Part shown: positions 40,641 through 53,601 of the stretch, piece by piece
Position numbering within the stretch: position 1 is the first letter of the stretch
Layout of the letters: each line of letters starts with the position of its first letter
From: Fibrobacter sp. UWH4
Lineage (GTDB): Bacteria > Fibrobacterota > Fibrobacteria > Fibrobacterales > Fibrobacteraceae
Length of the DNA: 64,000 bases
Direction of reading: 5' to 3'
Assembly (NCBI RefSeq): GCF_900142475.1
Contig: NZ_FRAY01000002.1
Coordinates: 248,001 to 312,000 of the forward strand
Translations under genes and position numbers: made by a program
The notes under the pieces: model-generated
What the model saw: the letters and a program-made list of their open reading frames with translations, nothing else
The model's database searches: none
What the model was told of the DNA's origin: nothing

Positions 40641-40678
40641 AACTATATTTCTCGCGACACTTTTTAGTGGAGGTTTTT

Positions 40679-41488
40679 ATGGGTAAATCTCGTTTTATTT
40701 TGCCTAATGCTTTTACCAGCATGAACTTTTTGCTGGGCGTCTTTGCGATCTGTTGGGTGACCGGGGCTTTTTCTTCTTTCACTAGCGCCGACCCCATCCG
40801 CACGGGAGCCTATTTCATTCTTTTAAGCGTCCTTCTGGACAAGCTGGACGGTTTTGCCGCTCGACTCGTAAACGCCAGTTCCGAGTTCGGAGCGCAGTTC
40901 GACAGCCTTTCCGACCTGATTGCCTTCGGTCTCGCTCCCGCCTTTACGATTTTCTTTGCCTACAAGACCATCGCTCCTGAATGGTTCCAGGCTAACGGAG
41001 TCCTGCTGGTAGTCACGTTCTCCATCTACGTGCTCTGTGCCGCCATGCGTCTTGCAAAGTACAACGCCTGCGACAGTGACACCTACCACCACCATTTCTC
41101 GGGCCTCCCCTCCACCTTTGCAGGTGCAATCAACGCTATCCTGATTGTCCACCTTCAGTCGCATGGATTTTTCGCAGATCAGAGCGGAATCCACATGTTC
41201 CTGCCCGTGTTCGTGATGCTGGTTACGGGCCTACTGATGGTCTGTCCGCTGTTCCTGCCCAAGCTCCAGCCGCGCAAGAACCCCATCTTCAACATTTTCC
41301 AGGCAATCCTGATCGTGATTACCTACATCTGCGGTTTCGTGTTCATTTCGGACAAGATCCCCTTTATCACCGAATACCTGCTGGTTCTCTGCACCAGCTA
41401 TCTCGTCATCGGCTTCGGCATCGGCCTTGTCCAGCGCAAGAAGATTATCGCTAACGCCGAGAAGAATAAGATCGAAGAAAGGCGCTAA
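40679..41488 (+). CDS. pssA: CDP-alcohol phosphatidyltransferase, probably phosphatidylserine synthase
   Basis: The start at ATG 40679 has GGAGG six bases upstream; a GTG 12 bases earlier is less likely. The 269-residue membrane protein has about eight hydrophobic helices. The CDP-alcohol motif is DKLDGFAARLVNASSEFGAQFDSLSDLIAFG (D..DG..AR...FG..FDSLSD). The rest (YHHHFSGLPSTFAGAI) fits the PssA branch that makes phosphatidylserine from CDP-diacylglycerol and serine, rather than PgsA. It overlaps the tail of the convergent mpaA-like gene by 38 bp, so the two stops lie within each other's coding region. The product is the precursor of phosphatidylethanolamine. Confidence 0.9.
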   Translation: MGKSRFILPNAFTSMNFLLGVFAICWVTGAFSSFTSADPIRTGAYFILLSVLLDKLDGFAARLVNASSEFGAQFDSLSDLIAFGLAPAFTIFFAYKTIAPEWFQANGVLLVVTFSIYVLCAAMRLAKYNACDSDTYHHHFSGLPSTFAGAINAILIVHLQSHGFFADQSGIHMFLPVFVMLVTGLLMVCPLFLPKLQPRKNPIFNIFQAILIVITYICGFVFISDKIPFITEYLLVLCTSYLVIGFGIGLVQRKKIIANAEKNKIEERR

Positions 41489-42138: not shown

Positions 42139-42813
42139 TTAGACAAAGTACGGATAGATGTAATCTTGGGCGAGAGTTTCCAGGTTATCGAGAAGAGCCG
42201 ACTTGCAGGCAATATCCGTCTTTTCGTAGAGTTTGCGGAGTTCCGCAAGAGAGAAATCCTCTAGGTACTTCCGCGATGTCGGTAAGTGCGCGATATGCCA
42301 TTTTTCGGGCTGGATCTTGCCGCGACCAGGAACAAAAACCCGTTCAAATCCAAAAGATTCACCGGACGCCATCAGCTCCGTAAGCCGCTGATGGAACGGA
42401 GCGAACATCCCGTCGCACTCGGCGGGAGTCAGCTGCACTTCGTAACCTTCGGGGCAGGCATTTCCGTCGACCACATCGAGGTCGGTTCCCAGGTGGTGGC
42501 GACTTGCGCCCGGAAGCGCCGACCAAGTGAGAATCGCATACATCAGCGATTCCTCGTCGCGGGGGCGTTCCATAGGAGTACCCGTTGCATCGAGGAGCGG
42601 GAGTTTTCCCGCCGCCTTGCGATTCCAGATGGACAGCTGGCGTTCAAAGGGGCGGTATGCAGATTCCAGGCGGAGCCTGAAACCGTCGCGCGCCAACGTT
42701 TCTTTTAATTTGTTGTAAAACGAAAGAATCTCTTTATCCAGCGGACACCCTTCGATTTCGATGAAATCCGAAGATTTTGCATCGCGGAGACCAAAACAAA
42801 GTTGAGTGCTCAC
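42139..42813 (-). CDS. VanY-family D-alanyl-D-alanine carboxypeptidase
   Basis: The most likely start is GTG 42813, which shares GTGA with the ruvC stop and has GGGAGG nine bases upstream. The longer frame upstream would overlap ruvC by 40 bases. The 224-residue protein shows the peptidase M15 motifs SRHHLGTDLDV (SxHxxGxAxD-type zinc site) and EKWHIAH (Glu-His). RLRLESAYRPFERQLSIW precedes them. It should trim D-Ala from peptidoglycan stem peptides. There is no signal peptide; a cytoplasmic role in recycling, together with MpaA, is more likely than a periplasmic role. Confidence 0.88.
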   Translation of the reverse strand: MSTQLCFGLRDAKSSDFIEIEGCPLDKEILSFYNKLKETLARDGFRLRLESAYRPFERQLSIWNRKAAGKLPLLDATGTPMERPRDEESLMYAILTWSALPGASRHHLGTDLDVVDGNACPEGYEVQLTPAECDGMFAPFHQRLTELMASGESFGFERVFVPGRGKIQPEKWHIAHLPTSRKYLEDFSLAELRKLYEKTDIACKSALLDNLETLAQDYIYPYFV

Positions 42814-43406
42814 GGAAGTTTTCCTCCCATTTTCTGGATTAAATTTTCCCACTGTTTGACGGTCGGCTTTTTCTTGCGGTTTGATATTTTCTTCTTGGTG
42901 CAGTCTGCAGGAAGTGCGGCCGAAAGGTTCGATAGGAGCGGAGCAGGATTTGCATGAGTCCAGGCAATTGCAAGAGCATCGGAGGCATCCAGCGGAAGTT
43001 CCCCCGCCTCGATTCCGAGACGCGCAAAAATCATATTCGCCACCTGTTCCTTGGCGGCTCCACCATCACCCGTGACAGCCAGTTTGACCGCACGGGGGCT
43101 ATATTCGTTAAAGGACATTCCACGGCGGCGGCAAGCCACGAGAATAGCCCCTCGGATATGCCCCAGCACCAGGGCGCTCTTTGCATTCTTCGCAAAGAAC
43201 ACCCCTTCCATGCTCAAAGCCTCGGGATGGTACTTGTCCAGGAGCGTTTCCAGCTCCGACACAATTTGCAGCAAGCGGTCTTCGAGGACATGCCCCGCAG
43301 GAGCGTGGAGAACGCCGTATTCCAGCACACGGGAATTTTTCGATCCTGTATCTAAAAAAGCATAGCCGGTAGTAATAGAACCGGGGTCTATCCCGAGAAT
43401 AATCAT
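42810..43406 (-). CDS. ruvC: Crossover junction endodeoxyribonuclease RuvC
   Basis: The 198-residue protein has the RuvC catalytic acids: ILGIDPGSITTGYAFLD (Asp7), SMEGVFFAKNAKSALVLGHIRGAIL (Glu) and PLDASDALAIAWTHA (Asp pair). It resolves Holliday junctions as a dimer together with RuvAB. The C-terminus ends LIQKMGGKLP, longer than the E. coli protein by a Lys-rich extension (KKKISNRKKKPTVKQW). Its genes ruvA and ruvB are not adjacent. It is the first gene of an operon with two peptidoglycan enzymes, an unusual partner set. It is divergent from the primase-helicase gene with a 52-bp gap. Confidence 0.93.
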   Translation of the reverse strand: MIILGIDPGSITTGYAFLDTGSKNSRVLEYGVLHAPAGHVLEDRLLQIVSELETLLDKYHPEALSMEGVFFAKNAKSALVLGHIRGAILVACRRRGMSFNEYSPRAVKLAVTGDGGAAKEQVANMIFARLGIEAGELPLDASDALAIAWTHANPAPLLSNLSAALPADCTKKKISNRKKKPTVKQWENLIQKMGGKLP

Positions 43407-43458: not shown

Positions 43459-45369
43459 ATGCTTATCGATCAAGAACATGCCGGAATCATCATGCGTGCA
43501 AAGACCCACCCCCGTCAGCTGGGAATTCCTCTCAGCCGTTGGGGCAGAAACCTGATTGCATGCTGCCCCTTCCATTCCCCGGAAGAAACATCCCTGTTCT
43601 TTTACGACGCCCTGGGTTACTGGCGTTACCGTTGCCTGCAATGCGGAAGCGAGGGCGACCTTGTTGAATTCGTGATGCGCAGCCGTTTCAACGGCATGGA
43701 AGAACCCGCCGCCCGAGCTGAAGCGGTAGACTTTTTAGGGACCCTCGAATCCGACCAGGGCAAGCAAACGCAGGAAGAACACCCCTGGATCAAAGAAATC
43801 GGTGGCGAAAAATCTAAAGTCCTCGAGAACTTCGTCCGTTACTGCCATTGGGCCGCTTGCAGGAGCCCTTCTTCGGCAGAGTTCCTTGCTGCACGCGGAT
43901 GGAACATCGGACAGGCGCAGCTCTACGGTCTCGGCTATTATAGCGGCGATCCCGAACCGTTTATCAGCTACTGCATGATGTCGGGTATCGAGCGTCACCA
44001 GATCAGTTTCTACCTGGACAACCTCGAAGCTTACCACGAGCCGCGCATCACCATTCCCGCACGCAATTCCAAGGGGCTGATCCACTCCGTTTACGGGCGC
44101 GTCCTCGATGACACCGACAGTCCGCACCGTTACATTTCTTACGCATCGGGCCCGAGCGACATTCCTTTCAACATCCAGCCTGACATTAGCAAACCCGTGA
44201 TTGTCGAAGGATTCTTCGACGCACTCACCGCCGACCTCGCCGGTATTCCGGGAGTGGTTTCGACCATGTACCAGGAACTTTCGCTGAGCCACCTTTACAA
44301 GCTCAAGGCTTGCGGTGCAGAATCGGTCACGGTCATTCTCCGTCGAGAGCTCGACCGCAGAGAACAGGAATTCCGTATCCAGAAATACCTGAAAATGGCG
44401 GAACAGCAGGATCTGCGTTTCAAATCGATTGTGCTTCCGAAGGGCGAAACCGTCGACGAAGTCGTGCGCAAGAACGGTGCCGACCAGTTGATTTCGCTCG
44501 TTGCCCAGACCGAAGAGGACACGGTGCATACCCACCGTCGTTCTATGCTGTTGCAGGACATCAAGGAAAACTTTGATACCGCCATGGGATGTCCTCCGGA
44601 CGTCAGCGTCGGATACGCACTCAACACTTTCCCGAAACTCACGCAGGAAATTGACGGTATCCAGTCAGGCTGTTTCTACGTTTCGTCCAAGCCGTTCGGT
44701 CTCAAGACTACGCTACTCTCCAGTTTCGCTCTCGACCTGCTCCAGAGCAACCCGAAACTGAAACTGATCTACGTTGCACTTGAAACTCCGCGCCGCCAGA
44801 TTTTCGACAGGCTCGTCGCCATGCTTATCGGTGAATCGGTATTGACCGTTCGCAAGCAAAGCGAAGACGAAGCGGTGAACCAGAAGATTCTGGAAGCAAC
44901 CCGCGACCTGATGGCATTCGTGCGCAACAACCGACTGGAAATCTGGGAAGACCAGCCCGCGTTCGACAACCAGGAACTGCTGAACACCCTGAAAGAAGAA
45001 GTCAGGGAACACCCGAACCTAGTCGTCATCATCGATGGAATTGACCATCTGAAAGTTTCGGACCATGTGGACCTTTCGGACATTCACGAACGCCGTTCCT
45101 CTGTTGTCCTGGATCTTTACAAGGCGCTCGACATACCCATCTTTGTTGGCGGCGAGCTCGTCGACTCGGAACAGGGACTTGTCGGACCCAGAGCATACCT
45201 CCGCGATTCCGATGCCATTTACTGGCTTGAATCCAAGGGCGGCAACCTGTTCCTCACCGTAGATTCCAAGCGTCTTGGCAACAATCAGCTGTACCAGGGA
45301 ACACTCTCCATCGATCCGCTTTCGAACAGGATGCAGGAAGAGCCCTGGAACATCGAGAATAACGGCTAG
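43459..45369 (+). CDS. DnaG-DnaB-like fusion (zinc finger, TOPRIM and RecA-like helicase domains)
   Basis: The 636-residue protein joins three parts. The CHC2 primase zinc finger is intact: C36-P-F-H39 and C59-x2-C62. A TOPRIM domain follows with EGFFDAL (E250), but the DxD motif is only RRELDR (residues 295-300). The C-terminal third resembles DnaB: SSKPFGLKTTLLSSF, with K416 and T417 kept, but the glycine is shifted and the first glycine is missing. Walker B is LVVIIDGID; ETPRR and DSKRLGN match later DnaB motifs. The layout is like phage T7 gp4 or Twinkle. It starts with AGAGGTC upstream. Degenerate motifs suggest altered catalysis. No phage genes surround it. Confidence 0.75.
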   Translation: MLIDQEHAGIIMRAKTHPRQLGIPLSRWGRNLIACCPFHSPEETSLFFYDALGYWRYRCLQCGSEGDLVEFVMRSRFNGMEEPAARAEAVDFLGTLESDQGKQTQEEHPWIKEIGGEKSKVLENFVRYCHWAACRSPSSAEFLAARGWNIGQAQLYGLGYYSGDPEPFISYCMMSGIERHQISFYLDNLEAYHEPRITIPARNSKGLIHSVYGRVLDDTDSPHRYISYASGPSDIPFNIQPDISKPVIVEGFFDALTADLAGIPGVVSTMYQELSLSHLYKLKACGAESVTVILRRELDRREQEFRIQKYLKMAEQQDLRFKSIVLPKGETVDEVVRKNGADQLISLVAQTEEDTVHTHRRSMLLQDIKENFDTAMGCPPDVSVGYALNTFPKLTQEIDGIQSGCFYVSSKPFGLKTTLLSSFALDLLQSNPKLKLIYVALETPRRQIFDRLVAMLIGESVLTVRKQSEDEAVNQKILEATRDLMAFVRNNRLEIWEDQPAFDNQELLNTLKEEVREHPNLVVIIDGIDHLKVSDHVDLSDIHERRSSVVLDLYKALDIPIFVGGELVDSEQGLVGPRAYLRDSDAIYWLESKGGNLFLTVDSKRLGNNQLYQGTLSIDPLSNRMQEEPWNIENNG

Positions 45370-45371
45370 TA

Positions 45372-46574
45372 ATGTTTACTATCGTCGATTTCAACAACTT
45401 CTGGAGCCCCTCCGGCGGAGGCGTCCGACGGTACCACCTACAAAAGATGGCGTTTTACGAGAACTTATCTTCGGAAACAACAGACCAGGTTCTTTCCGTG
45501 TTCGTGATGCCGGATTCCAAGACCTTTACCGAAAAAAGAAGCGAAAGCCTGATTATCGAACATGTCGAGGCATTTCGTTTTCCGGGTAAATGGGAATACC
45601 GCTTTATTTGGAAACCGTCGCAAATTGAGCCTGTCCTTGCCAAATACAAGCCTCAAGTCATCGAAGTCGGTTCGCCCTACCTGCTCCCGACCGTGGTTCG
45701 CAGGGCCGCCAAAAAGATTGTCCCCGAAGCCGTCTTGCTGAGTTTTTGGCATGCGGATTTCCCGATTACCTACGTGCAGCGCCCCGTCACGAATAAGTTC
45801 GGCAAGGCACTCGGCAATCTGAGCAAGAACGTCGCTTTCTGGTACGCTCGTCAGGAATTCAGGCATTTCGACGGCATCCAAGTTTCCTGCAACGAAGTCT
45901 TGAAGCGGCTCGACAGGCACAAGCTTCCGACAAGCCACTGGATTCCGCTCGGTTGCGACATCCAGATGTTCTCGCCCGCCAAACGTGACGAAACTTTGGT
46001 TCAAAAACTGAAAGACGGCAAACCCGACAGGCTTACGATCTTCTTCCCGCACCGGTTCTGCGAAGAAAAAGGAATTGAGCTTTTACTCGGCGCCTACCCC
46101 ATTCTCTGCGAAAAACTCGGATGCGAACCGGCACTCGTCTTTGCTGGTACGGGACCGTACTTGACTCAAGTGCAGGAAGCCGTTGAAAAATATCCGCACA
46201 TCCAATACGCGGGATTCATTTCGTCCATCGACGAAATGGCGAGGCATTACGCGAGCGTTGACCTCGGACTCGCCCTTTCAGGCTGGGAAACCTTCGGACT
46301 TTCGATTCTCGAAAGTATGGCCTGCGGCAATGCGCAGATCGGTGCCTCGACGGGAGCCGCAGCCGAACACATCCGCGAATCTGGAGCGGGAGTTGTCTTG
46401 AAGGAACGCACTCCACAGGCGCTCGCCGACGCCATCGTCGAACTATACCATTCCGACATGGCCACGATGAAACAGAACGCTCGCGCCTATGCCGAAAAAT
46501 TCAGCTGGGCAGACTGTTTCAAGCGCCAGCTAGAACTTTACAAGCTCATTTACAACCAAAAGAGGAAAAAATGA
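45372..46574 (+). CDS. GT4-family glycosyltransferase
   Basis: The 400-residue GT-B protein starts MFTIVDFNNFWSPSGGGVRRYHLQK. The glycine-rich GGGVRRYH is the acceptor-side loop. The C-terminal donor domain includes PHRFCEEKGIELLLGAYPIL and SGWETFGLSILESMACGNAQIGASTGAAAEH, the E-x7-E motif of the GT4 class. A short gap of two bases follows the primase gene and ATGA overlaps the next start, so it is in the same operon. The sugar and acceptor are unknown. The genes downstream (sulfatase, more glycosyltransferases) suggest a role in envelope polysaccharide. Confidence 0.85.
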   Translation: MFTIVDFNNFWSPSGGGVRRYHLQKMAFYENLSSETTDQVLSVFVMPDSKTFTEKRSESLIIEHVEAFRFPGKWEYRFIWKPSQIEPVLAKYKPQVIEVGSPYLLPTVVRRAAKKIVPEAVLLSFWHADFPITYVQRPVTNKFGKALGNLSKNVAFWYARQEFRHFDGIQVSCNEVLKRLDRHKLPTSHWIPLGCDIQMFSPAKRDETLVQKLKDGKPDRLTIFFPHRFCEEKGIELLLGAYPILCEKLGCEPALVFAGTGPYLTQVQEAVEKYPHIQYAGFISSIDEMARHYASVDLGLALSGWETFGLSILESMACGNAQIGASTGAAAEHIRESGAGVVLKERTPQALADAIVELYHSDMATMKQNARAYAEKFSWADCFKRQLELYKLIYNQKRKK

Positions 46575-50126: not shown

Positions 50127-52712
50127 ATGACTACAAAGAAATCCTTGCAAGAAAAATTTTCAGCATGGTACATTCCGCTGATCTGTAAGCATCAATTCAA
50201 AGCTCTGGCATTCTATTTCCTGCTTGCGGCACTATGTGCATTCCCCATCTTCGTTAAACCCGGCCTTCGATTGGACGCAGACCTTTCTCACTTGCTGCCC
50301 GACGAAACACCGAGCGTCCTCGCCCTACAAGAATCCTACCAGCGTTTTGGTAGCACAGACCGCTTTACAATCGCCATTCAGAGCGAAGACCCTGAAATCG
50401 TGGCGGCAATGCAGGATTCCATCGAGAACTATATTCATTCCCGTTGGCAAGGCGACTTCGTCTCAACGCAAAAAGACGAAGACAACCAATTCTTCAAGGA
50501 CAACGCCCTTCTTTATTTGCCCGTATTCCATTTGGAGCGCATCCGTAACAACCTGGAAGATCTTCAGTTGGAAATCGGCCGAAAGAACGGCCCACTCGTT
50601 GTGGACTTGTTGGGAGACGCTCCTGCGGAAACTACCGAAAAGAAAGAACGCATCTGGTTCGACGAAAATCTGCCGCAGGAGCTCGGCCTTCCGGACGAAG
50701 CCATTGGAGCTTTTGCCTCTTTCATTATAAAAGCCAAGCTTGGTTCCGAACAGGACCAAAAGGATGAATGGCATCCGAAAGACCCTGTACCGGCCCACCT
50801 GAAATCACGTCTCATCGGTTGCCCGCACCCAGACAGCACGGGAAAAATCCTGTTCAACGGCGTTGTGAACGCAAAACTCATCAAGCCGTCTACGGATTAC
50901 GAATTTGTCACCCACATTCTTGCACGCACGGATTCCCTACTCCAGCATTTCAACGGAAAAACTTTCGCCATTCCCACCCGTTTTACCGTAGACGGTACAT
51001 ACGAAGGACTTAAGGAAGTTGACGAAGTCGCCAACGACAGTATATTCTCCTTTGGCATCAGCCTGGTTTTGATCATCCTTCTGACATCCTATTTCTTTAG
51101 AGGAATCAAGGGGCCGATTCTTGTAACCAGCTCCGTGCTGTACGCCTGCATTCCGACATTCGCTTTCACAGCCGTGTTCTACGGCAAGCTGAATCCGTTT
51201 ACGGTCTTTGTGGCCTCCATCATCCTGGGAATTGGTATCGACTATTCCATCCACATGTTAGGAACCGCCCAGAAACTGTTGCGCGAGAAGGCCTCTCTGG
51301 AAGAAGTCCTTGAAGAAGCCCAAAAGCGTATGCTCAAGCCGTTTATCTTGGCAAGCTTCACCACTATCGCAGCATTCCTCACCTTGCTTGCGGCACATTT
51401 CAAGGGTTTCTACGAATTTGGCGTTGTAGCATCGGCAGGTGTTTTCTTCAGTATGCTCACCTCCATCTTGGTGCTCCCGGTATTCATCAAGTGCATGGGA
51501 GGCATTCCCAAGGCTCCGGACAACAGTTTCTTCCCGAAAGCCTGGACAGAAGCCAAAATTTTCAAGTTCTTCAAGGTCGCCGCCATTATCGGCTTTATTC
51601 TTGGCGCCATTTCCCTCTATTTCGCCCCACAAGTGGATTTCGAGCATAACCTTAAGAACCTTCGCCGAGCCTCTACGGTCAAGACGGTCCAGCACAACAA
51701 GATTTCCACTAAAGTGACCCGTGCAAGCTACAAGGCCAAGACCTCCACGCCGGCCGCAGTCATGGGCTCCAAGGTCTCACAGCTCGACCGCCTCTACGAC
51801 ACGCTGATGTATCGACTCAATGTGGAAAAGGATTCCATGTTGGGCAGCTTTATAACGCTCAAGAGTTTCATTCCGCCCAAGGATTCGCAGGAAGCGCGTC
51901 TTGAAATCATCGAGGAAATCCGCGACCTGGTGGAGGCTCGCGTATTTGACCGAGCCGAAGGAGAAGATTCCGTCAACATTGCCAATTTAAGAAAACTGGC
52001 CATGGTCGAAAGGACCTTTGCGCCAGAAGATCTTCCCAGCTGGATTCTAGATATCGTTCGCGAAAAGGACGGATCCTACGGCAAGATTGGCTTTATCTAC
52101 GGAGACTTCCCCAGCTGGGACGCAAAGGCGCTCCACCGTTTCCAGGAACGTTACGGGCACTGGAATTTTGACGGCGAAAAACTCCGCACCTTCTCGTCGC
52201 AGTTTATTCTTTCCGATGTGATTTCTTCCGTGAAAGAAGACAGTTTCAACTTGGCGATCGTAATCATTCTCGTTATTTTCGGCACACTTCTCATCTCGTT
52301 CAGAAAGCCGAAGATTTTCCTTGTGGGTTGCATTCCCTTCGGCATGGGCATTCTCCTTACCTTAGGATTGCTAGGGTTCCTCAACGGGACGTTCGACTAC
52401 GGCAAGATAAGCATTTATAATGTGATTGTGATTCCTATGACATTGGGTATCGGTATCGACGCCACGATTCACCTGGTGACTGCCTGGAATTCCGACAAGA
52501 CCATGACTCTTCGCCGATTGATGGATACAACGGCACGAAACGTGATGGCCAGCTCCTTGACGACTATTGCCGGTTTCGTGGGATTCCTCTTTACCACCCA
52601 CAAAGGATTGAAGGGAATCGGAGACCTTGCCTGCATGAGCATTTTCATTTTCCTGATTGCAAGCATTATATTCTCGATGTTCCTGTGCGGCAAGATCCTT
52701 AAGAAGGAGTAG
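50127..52712 (+). CDS. MMPL/RND-family lipid or hopanoid exporter
   Basis: The start is ATG 50127; a TTG six bases earlier is less likely. The 861-residue protein has two six-helix membrane blocks: one helix near residue 30, then five near 305-470, and the second block after 700. Large periplasmic loops lie between (FPIFVKPGLRLDADLSHLLPDETPSVLALQES). Both blocks keep the sterol-sensing/MMPL pattern (SIILGIGIDYSIHMLGTAQK and VIVIPMTLGIGIDATIHLVTAW). The paired GxxxD motifs (GIGIDYS, GIGIDAT) carry the proton-relay aspartates. It resembles HpnN-type transporters. The substrate is unknown. AAGGAG near the end of the gene starts the next coding region, so the two are coupled. Confidence 0.88.
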   Translation: MTTKKSLQEKFSAWYIPLICKHQFKALAFYFLLAALCAFPIFVKPGLRLDADLSHLLPDETPSVLALQESYQRFGSTDRFTIAIQSEDPEIVAAMQDSIENYIHSRWQGDFVSTQKDEDNQFFKDNALLYLPVFHLERIRNNLEDLQLEIGRKNGPLVVDLLGDAPAETTEKKERIWFDENLPQELGLPDEAIGAFASFIIKAKLGSEQDQKDEWHPKDPVPAHLKSRLIGCPHPDSTGKILFNGVVNAKLIKPSTDYEFVTHILARTDSLLQHFNGKTFAIPTRFTVDGTYEGLKEVDEVANDSIFSFGISLVLIILLTSYFFRGIKGPILVTSSVLYACIPTFAFTAVFYGKLNPFTVFVASIILGIGIDYSIHMLGTAQKLLREKASLEEVLEEAQKRMLKPFILASFTTIAAFLTLLAAHFKGFYEFGVVASAGVFFSMLTSILVLPVFIKCMGGIPKAPDNSFFPKAWTEAKIFKFFKVAAIIGFILGAISLYFAPQVDFEHNLKNLRRASTVKTVQHNKISTKVTRASYKAKTSTPAAVMGSKVSQLDRLYDTLMYRLNVEKDSMLGSFITLKSFIPPKDSQEARLEIIEEIRDLVEARVFDRAEGEDSVNIANLRKLAMVERTFAPEDLPSWILDIVREKDGSYGKIGFIYGDFPSWDAKALHRFQERYGHWNFDGEKLRTFSSQFILSDVISSVKEDSFNLAIVIILVIFGTLLISFRKPKIFLVGCIPFGMGILLTLGLLGFLNGTFDYGKISIYNVIVIPMTLGIGIDATIHLVTAWNSDKTMTLRRLMDTTARNVMASSLTTIAGFVGFLFTTHKGLKGIGDLACMSIFIFLIASIIFSMFLCGKILKKE

Positions 52713-52716
52713 TCGC

Positions 52717-53601
52717 GTGAAGTTCATCGAGCTATACCGTAGCATCATGCAAGGTGTCTGGAACATCGGCTTTGTCGAAAACACCTTGGATGGAGTCATC
52801 GACGGCGAACCCTTGAAAATCAGGTGGCTGGAACATGAATGCAGGGACCGCTGGTTTGCCGACCCCTTCATTCTCGATGTTACGGACGACAAGATATACG
52901 TCTTGGTGGAAGAATACTACTATCCCCATAAACGGGGACGCCTTGCGATGCTCACGGTGGACAAGGCAAGCAACAAGCTCCTTAAAGTGGATACAATCCT
53001 GGAATTGGATTCGCATCTCAGCTTTCCGGCCATTATCCGCAGGGACGGCAAGATCCTCGTCTACCCTGAAAATTTCAAGGGTGGTGGCCTGAAACTATAC
53101 GACTTGGATCTAGAAAAACCCGCCTTGGTAAACGCAAGGCCTATCAGCGAAGCGCTCCTGACAGATGCGATTTATACGGAACTATTCGGCAAGAAGCAGA
53201 TTTATTCTACGGAAATTCCTGATCCAAACGGTTCCACTTTAGGCGTGTACGAAACAGACGATGCCGGAAAGTATGTCAAGGTGAAGGAATATCACTTTCC
53301 CGAAAAAATTGCCAGAAATGCCGGAGACTGGTTCGAATATAAAGGAAAGAAATACCGCCCCGCCCAGGAAAGCAATACTGAATACGGCCACGGCATATCC
53401 TTCCAGCAAATCGAGGAAACACCGGACGGTCTCGAATTCAAGGAATTGTGGAGAAAGTCATCTCCGCACCCGACGATGAAGGTCGCGTTCCATACATTCA
53501 ACATGTACAAGGGCGTCATGGTCGTCGATTGCCGTGGCTACCGCTACAAGGTAGCTGCCGGCATAATCAACTTCTTTAGGCGCCTGTTCGTAAAAGAATA
53601 A
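52717..53601 (+). CDS. GINT1-N-terminal-like beta-propeller protein
   Basis: The start is GTG 52717 (VKFIELYRS), with AAGGAG eight bases upstream. The 294-residue protein resembles the GH43-like propeller found at the N-terminus of glucosamine inositolphosphorylceramide transferases. The pattern includes RWFADPFILDVTDDKIYVLVEEYYYPHKRGRLAMLTVD and YRPAQESNTEYGHGISFQQIEE. Bacterial copies usually lie in polysaccharide clusters. The function, perhaps glycan binding or a transferase role, is unknown. The sole C-terminal feature is a basic tail (INFFRRLFVKE). Confidence 0.75.
   Translation: MKFIELYRSIMQGVWNIGFVENTLDGVIDGEPLKIRWLEHECRDRWFADPFILDVTDDKIYVLVEEYYYPHKRGRLAMLTVDKASNKLLKVDTILELDSHLSFPAIIRRDGKILVYPENFKGGGLKLYDLDLEKPALVNARPISEALLTDAIYTELFGKKQIYSTEIPDPNGSTLGVYETDDAGKYVKVKEYHFPEKIARNAGDWFEYKGKKYRPAQESNTEYGHGISFQQIEETPDGLEFKELWRKSSPHPTMKVAFHTFNMYKGVMVVDCRGYRYKVAAGIINFFRRLFVKE

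Follow-up and report, generated by a model that had tools for sequence, protein, structure and literature searches.

The window analysed here is a stretch of 64,000 nucleotides from Fibrobacter sp. UWH4, and the gene under study is an open reading frame of 636 amino acids with a clear ATG start, just 5' of which lies a purine-rich GAGG. We refer to this gene, and to a second fusion gene upstream of it, by their first positions in the window, as 43459 and 28887. The features of the locus are collected in Table 1.

Table 1. Features of the 43459 locus and its surroundings (positions in the window; residues are those of the 43459 protein)
Feature	Position	Strand	Remarks
Replication-type fusion, degenerate AEP-like primase and RecA-fold ATPase with intact P-loop	28887..30650	+	587 aa
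ruvC, divergent upstream neighbour	42810..43406	-	near in most loci
Pseudo-primase-helicase gene, whole ORF	43459..45369	+	636 aa
CHC2 zinc finger, residues 23-76; ligands C36, H39, C59, C62	43525..43686	+	Pfam PF01807, 6.7e-9; ligands 69/69
DnaG-type core, N-terminal part, residues 116-240 (approximate boundary)	43804..44178	+	TIGR01391 over residues 23-360 at 5e-26; hhalign to own DnaG; AF2 model
TOPRIM-like domain, residues 241-352, catalytic pair degenerate	44179..44514	+	
Former DxD, now R295-R296-E297	44341..44349	+	D-G-D in own DnaG
Linker segment, residues 353-385, with helix 359-377	44515..44613	+	AF2 model
DnaB-like RecA domain, residues 386-620	44614..45318	+	
Degenerate Walker A, residues 409-417, SSKPFGLKT	44683..44709	+	Gly lost; Lys and Thr retained
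Walker B-like strand, residues 521-529, LVVIIDGID	45019..45045	+	D526 invariant
Family 4 glycosyltransferase, next gene, same operon	45372..46574	+	start overlaps 43459 stop or lies within ~25 bp of it

The domain order of the 43459 protein, zinc finger, RNA-polymerase domain/TOPRIM, linker helix and RecA domain, is secure. Pfam recognizes the CHC2 finger, and its DnaB_C (3.2e-4) and Toprim (0.01-0.03) matches are both below cut-offs; the NCBIfam dnaG model (TIGR01391) scores 91.5 bits, compared with an equivalog cut-off of 283.6, and the PHROGs matches are to phage primase and DnaB families. A profile of 32 orthologues searched against solved structures finds DnaG (2au3, 1.4e-10, residues 23-351) and DnaB (9dls and others, 1.5e-6, residues 388-590), and hhalign relates the family to the DnaG of the same genome at an E-value of 1e-15. 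The linker segment is among the regions least diverged between near relatives. A single-chain AlphaFold2 model from a 32-row alignment (pLDDT 80.9, pTM 0.56) predicts domains that appear credible, in a mutual arrangement that is uncertain. The sequence-only reading of the locus had proposed a fusion resembling Twinkle or T7 gp4, and these are indeed the best Foldseek matches of the model in the PDB, human Twinkle (7t8b) coming first and T7 gp4 (5ikn/1q57) second, followed by Aquifex DnaG and by DnaB. The four domains of these primase-helicases are thus present in their order, with a RecA-fold C-terminal domain after the linker helix as in SF4 helicases (AlphaFold2 and Foldseek). The viral structural neighbours are generic phage primase-helicases with 10-23% identity.

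The zinc finger is intact, as first read, its four ligands being invariant in 69/69 orthologous sequences, and its hairpin carries eight F/W/Y residues, invariant aromatics, per 36-residue stretch versus five in the genome's own DnaG; these aromatics would suit base stacking, and DNA binding by the protein may be inferred from the intact finger. The TOPRIM DxD, said to be reduced to RRELDR, reads R-R-E in most of the orthologues. Where the genome's own DnaG has intact motifs (VEGYFD ... VFDGDEAG), the three positions of the former DxD are occupied in 57 near orthologues by R (56) or S (1), by R (55) or K (2), and by E (48), D (6), Q (2) or T (1). Within the same region D254 is kept in 69/69, and E250 is E in 48 and Q in 9 of the 57 near orthologues; the two deepest have S or P at this position. 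One of the latter, L096, keeps D295, the other, L095, has E295, and E250 is lost in both. The combination of a TOPRIM Glu with the DxD metal ligands that characterizes active DnaG-type primases is not found in the 43459 protein, and these residues make it very unlikely that it primes by the usual two-metal mechanism. Since the same changes recur across the family, they reflect neither chance nor sequencing error; recurrence in orthologues had been proposed as the test of a repurposed role.

The situation of the ATPase motifs is more nuanced. The P-loop reads S-S-x-P-F-G-L-K-T, compared with A-A-R-P-G-V-G-K-T in the genome's own DnaB, so the canonical Walker A GK[ST] of SF4 helicases is missing. 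The displaced glycines noted from the sequence (SKPFGLKT) are a family trait: the Gly before the Lys is replaced in 69/69 sequences, by Leu in 55/57 near orthologues and by Leu, Phe, Tyr, His or Asp across the orthologues as a whole. The acidic Walker B residue of SF4 helicases, D526, is kept in 69/69, and K416, T/S417 and E442 are each kept in 56/57 near orthologues. In the P-loop the exception is the L055/L101 lineage, in which the Lys and Ser/Thr positions are both Ser. Loss of the ATPase motifs, as first claimed, therefore holds for the P-loop Gly and not for the Lys, Ser/Thr and Walker B Asp, which are retained almost everywhere, and 'damaged' is more exact than 'absent'. ATP hydrolysis by the 43459 protein appears unlikely; it may still bind nucleotide or have an atypical activity, because most orthologues retain K416, T/S417, D526, E442 and several TOPRIM acids. 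In conclusion, loss of the primase centre is clear and loss of the ATPase is probable. The kept P-loop, Walker B and E442 residues, the alignment of residues 388-590 with DnaB and the conserved linker would all be expected of a helicase that remains active with a non-canonical P-loop and that, as in Twinkle, has lost priming alone. We consider such an activity improbable, given that the P-loop Gly is replaced throughout, that the L055/L101 lineage lacks the Lys itself, that the regions corresponding to the DnaB sensor and arginine finger look poorly kept, and that DnaB_C scores below its gathering threshold.

Comparison with characterized enzymes places the 43459 protein within a known architecture. 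Mitochondrial Twinkle (TWNK), its best full-length fold match, also combines a primase-dead N-terminal domain with a linker helix and a RecA domain; however, animal Twinkle retains just one of the four zinc-binding Cys and is an active helicase, whereas the 43459 protein has an intact finger and a damaged P-loop. T7 gp4 has the same succession of zinc finger, RNA polymerase domain/TOPRIM, linker helix and SF4 RecA domain, but it is phage-encoded and active in both functions, in contrast with the chromosomal, vertically inherited 43459 protein, in which the DxD and the P-loop Gly are lost. Bacterial DnaG is matched over residues 23-360 at a sub-equivalog score, but the metal pair is gone and a DnaB-like RecA domain replaces the helicase-binding C-terminus of DnaG. 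The resemblance to DnaB (PF03796) extends over residues 388-590, below the Pfam cut-off, without the DnaB N-terminal domain and without the P-loop Gly. In T7 gp4, primase-domain mutations lower single-stranded DNA binding and leave hexamer formation unchanged (PMC9198812), and in Twinkle the N-terminal domain, though dead as a primase, still contributes to the synthesis of long products, and the linker helix to hexamer formation (PMC7231222). On these precedents, a primase domain that no longer primes can retain a role in binding.

Among 168 genomes of the phylum, a profile search detected full-length 43459 orthologues in 80/80 of those belonging to the genus and in 97 belonging to the family, normally as one copy, and none outside the family. 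A contig scan gave 56 loci, all from Fibrobacter-type records. The gene is confined to one family, Fibrobacteraceae, within which it is absent from the genera g2 (1 genome) and g4 (12 genomes); the profile there matches no more than short stretches, presumably of the true DnaG. In a glycosyltransferase tree rooted on the outgroup family and containing some long branches, g2 and g4 are nested inside the family, which argues, with moderate confidence, that these genera once had the gene and lost it. The frame is open, without internal stops, in all 97 genomes, which disposes of a pseudogene or a frameshift. Comparison with near relatives gives a dN/dS of about 0.04-0.12 over the whole protein and 0.00-0.03 within the zinc finger, rough values as synonymous sites are near saturation. 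An intact ancestral version was looked for in the deep relatives and not found: the two deepest orthologues (43% and 33% identity) have already replaced the P-loop Gly and are both degenerate, at catalytic positions that differ in part between them. The catalytic erosion is therefore older than the family radiation and continued in different ways, a pattern that fits loss of a catalytic requirement and not a re-built active site.

As first noted, no phage context is found near the gene: its chromosomal location is conserved and no mobile-element neighbours were found. Phages, plasmids and viral contigs, searched by sequence, yielded only generic partial DnaG-like matches or nothing, so that clear orthology to an active phage protein, which had been named as grounds for rejecting repurposing, was looked for and not found. 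Such fusions are typical of phages and many phage primase-helicases figure among the structural neighbours, as would be expected if the gene were the decaying remains of a replication gene from a prophage or plasmid; nevertheless such a reading is highly improbable for a gene that is open in 97/97 genomes at a fixed location, with a dN/dS far below 1, a GC content similar to that of its neighbours and no orthologue in mobile elements. Present-day decay is refuted, while an ancient mobile-element origin is possible. A role in anti-phage defence was also discarded, as in PADLOC the zinc finger alone matches DRT models, weakly, without any match covering the protein, and as the gene is near-universal in the family rather than patchy. 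A third CHC2-finger protein (L064; G000 contig C1, ~304177) of 392 aa, with an intact-looking TOPRIM (LDHDEAG) and no helicase fusion, is possibly a mobile-element primase. The genome encodes ordinary, intact DnaG and DnaB, as well as RadA and DciA, dciA having been reported in Fibrobacteres (PMC5109545). No core replication role is therefore vacant, and the presence of DciA removes the need for the 43459 protein as a replacement helicase loader. A literature search found no work on the Fibrobacter 43459 protein.

The closest neighbour of the gene is not a replication gene. The glycosyltransferase lies directly 3' of it in 68/68 loci (some genomes being represented twice), the two deepest lineages included, and in the 28 loci measured the two genes mostly overlap or else are separated by a gap of at most 23 bp. 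Conservation of the ruvC side breaks down only in the two deepest lineages, in which the glycosyltransferase still follows. This linkage, the tightest of all, speaks against a non-catalytic DNA-handling role, and raises the idea that the 43459 protein works with the glycosyltransferase, for instance by linking envelope glycan or lipid synthesis to replication or by sensing nucleic acid. We regard this partnership as quite unlikely, as the glycosyltransferase is kept without the 43459 gene in g2 and g4 and in an outgroup family, as translational coupling can be mere operon economy, and as no part in glycosyl transfer is known for CHC2 fingers. A CDP-alcohol phosphatidyltransferase gene (40667-41488) and the glycosyltransferase gene (45372-46574) stay close even in L095 and L096, which suggests a glycolipid pathway around the locus, and elsewhere in the window (52657-53601) a protein matches GINT1_N, the N-terminal domain of glucosamine inositolphosphorylceramide transferase (9e-12). 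In g2 and g4 the glycosyltransferase gene is directly preceded by an RNase HI gene, at the site where 43459 would otherwise stand. The RNase HI at that place (L124-L132) has an N-terminal hybrid-binding domain, and Pfam does not detect the RNase H domain proper in the copy from g2 (L130). Replacement of the 43459 function by RNase HI was considered and set aside; RNase HI also occurs elsewhere in genomes that have the 43459 gene, and relocation is the simpler reading.

The window carries a second replication-type fusion within 16 kb, as had been pointed out, and the two prove to be unexpectedly co-inherited. The 28887 protein matches PHROG 2597 'DNA primase' (6.6e-70) as well as AAA_25, and its model (pLDDT 74.1) has a RecA domain whose fold resembles RadA/Rad51, KaiC, DnaB and RepA. 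Of its homologues, 20 span the region, and in these the His expected in the AEP motif, as assigned by reading of the alignment, is Gln, and the GKS P-loop is intact. The gene is carried by 80/80 members of the genus and by every other genus with the 43459 gene, gaps being confined to incomplete genomes, and it lies 11.6-21.5 kb from it (median 12.9 kb) in 82/82 genomes with both on one contig, also where the ruvC side is rearranged. What is new here is that the 28887 gene was lost together with the 43459 gene in g2 and g4, being absent from all the g2 and g4 genomes searched. This was not the deletion of a whole block, because two intervening genes are retained there, 30776 in 12/13 and 36133 in 13/13 genomes. 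As it is one event in one clade, the co-loss is suggestive rather than conclusive. The co-occurrence, the constant linkage and the co-loss would agree with a single hetero-oligomeric RecA-fold DNA machine, to which the 28887 protein, with its degenerate primase motif, would bring the working P-loop and the 43459 protein a zinc finger and a pseudo-ATPase subunit. Such a machine, a stronger form of the explanation that we prefer and compatible with it, is a tentative proposal that we would not rate as probable, as the sister family f2 has 28887 without 43459 and the profiles of the two fusions bear no convincing similarity.

We lean towards the view that 43459 encodes an ancient, vertically inherited and chromosomally fixed pseudo-enzyme of the DnaG-DnaB (Twinkle/gp4) type, acting as a non-catalytic DNA-handling factor. 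The protein would no longer make primers or unwind DNA; its zinc finger and the old RNA-polymerase-domain cleft would bind single-stranded or primed DNA, and its linker helix and RecA-like domain would serve for assembly, either by self-association or by docking on DnaB, DnaG or the 28887 ATPase. As such it might scaffold or regulate a step in replication or repair, in which priming and unwinding would be left to DnaG and DnaB and ATP turnover in the pathway, if any, to the 28887 protein, with which it perhaps shares one pathway. That the two fusions, both with lost priming centres, form one new DNA-handling complex of the Fibrobacteraceae, inherited and lost as a unit, is a more speculative extension to which we give limited credence.

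The architecture being known, 43459 is not a new kind of system, and a repurposed fusion is the best-supported reading. The family keeps a normal DnaG and a normal DnaB and, in addition, a full-length look-alike that seemingly cannot prime and probably cannot unwind DNA. This parallels Twinkle, a primase-helicase of phage type that lost priming, but a different subset of motifs is lost here, and on a bacterial chromosome. The 43459 gene thus offers a tractable case of replication enzymes becoming non-catalytic DNA-binding factors, for which its co-loss with 28887, a second degenerate primase-ATPase, points to a concrete partner.
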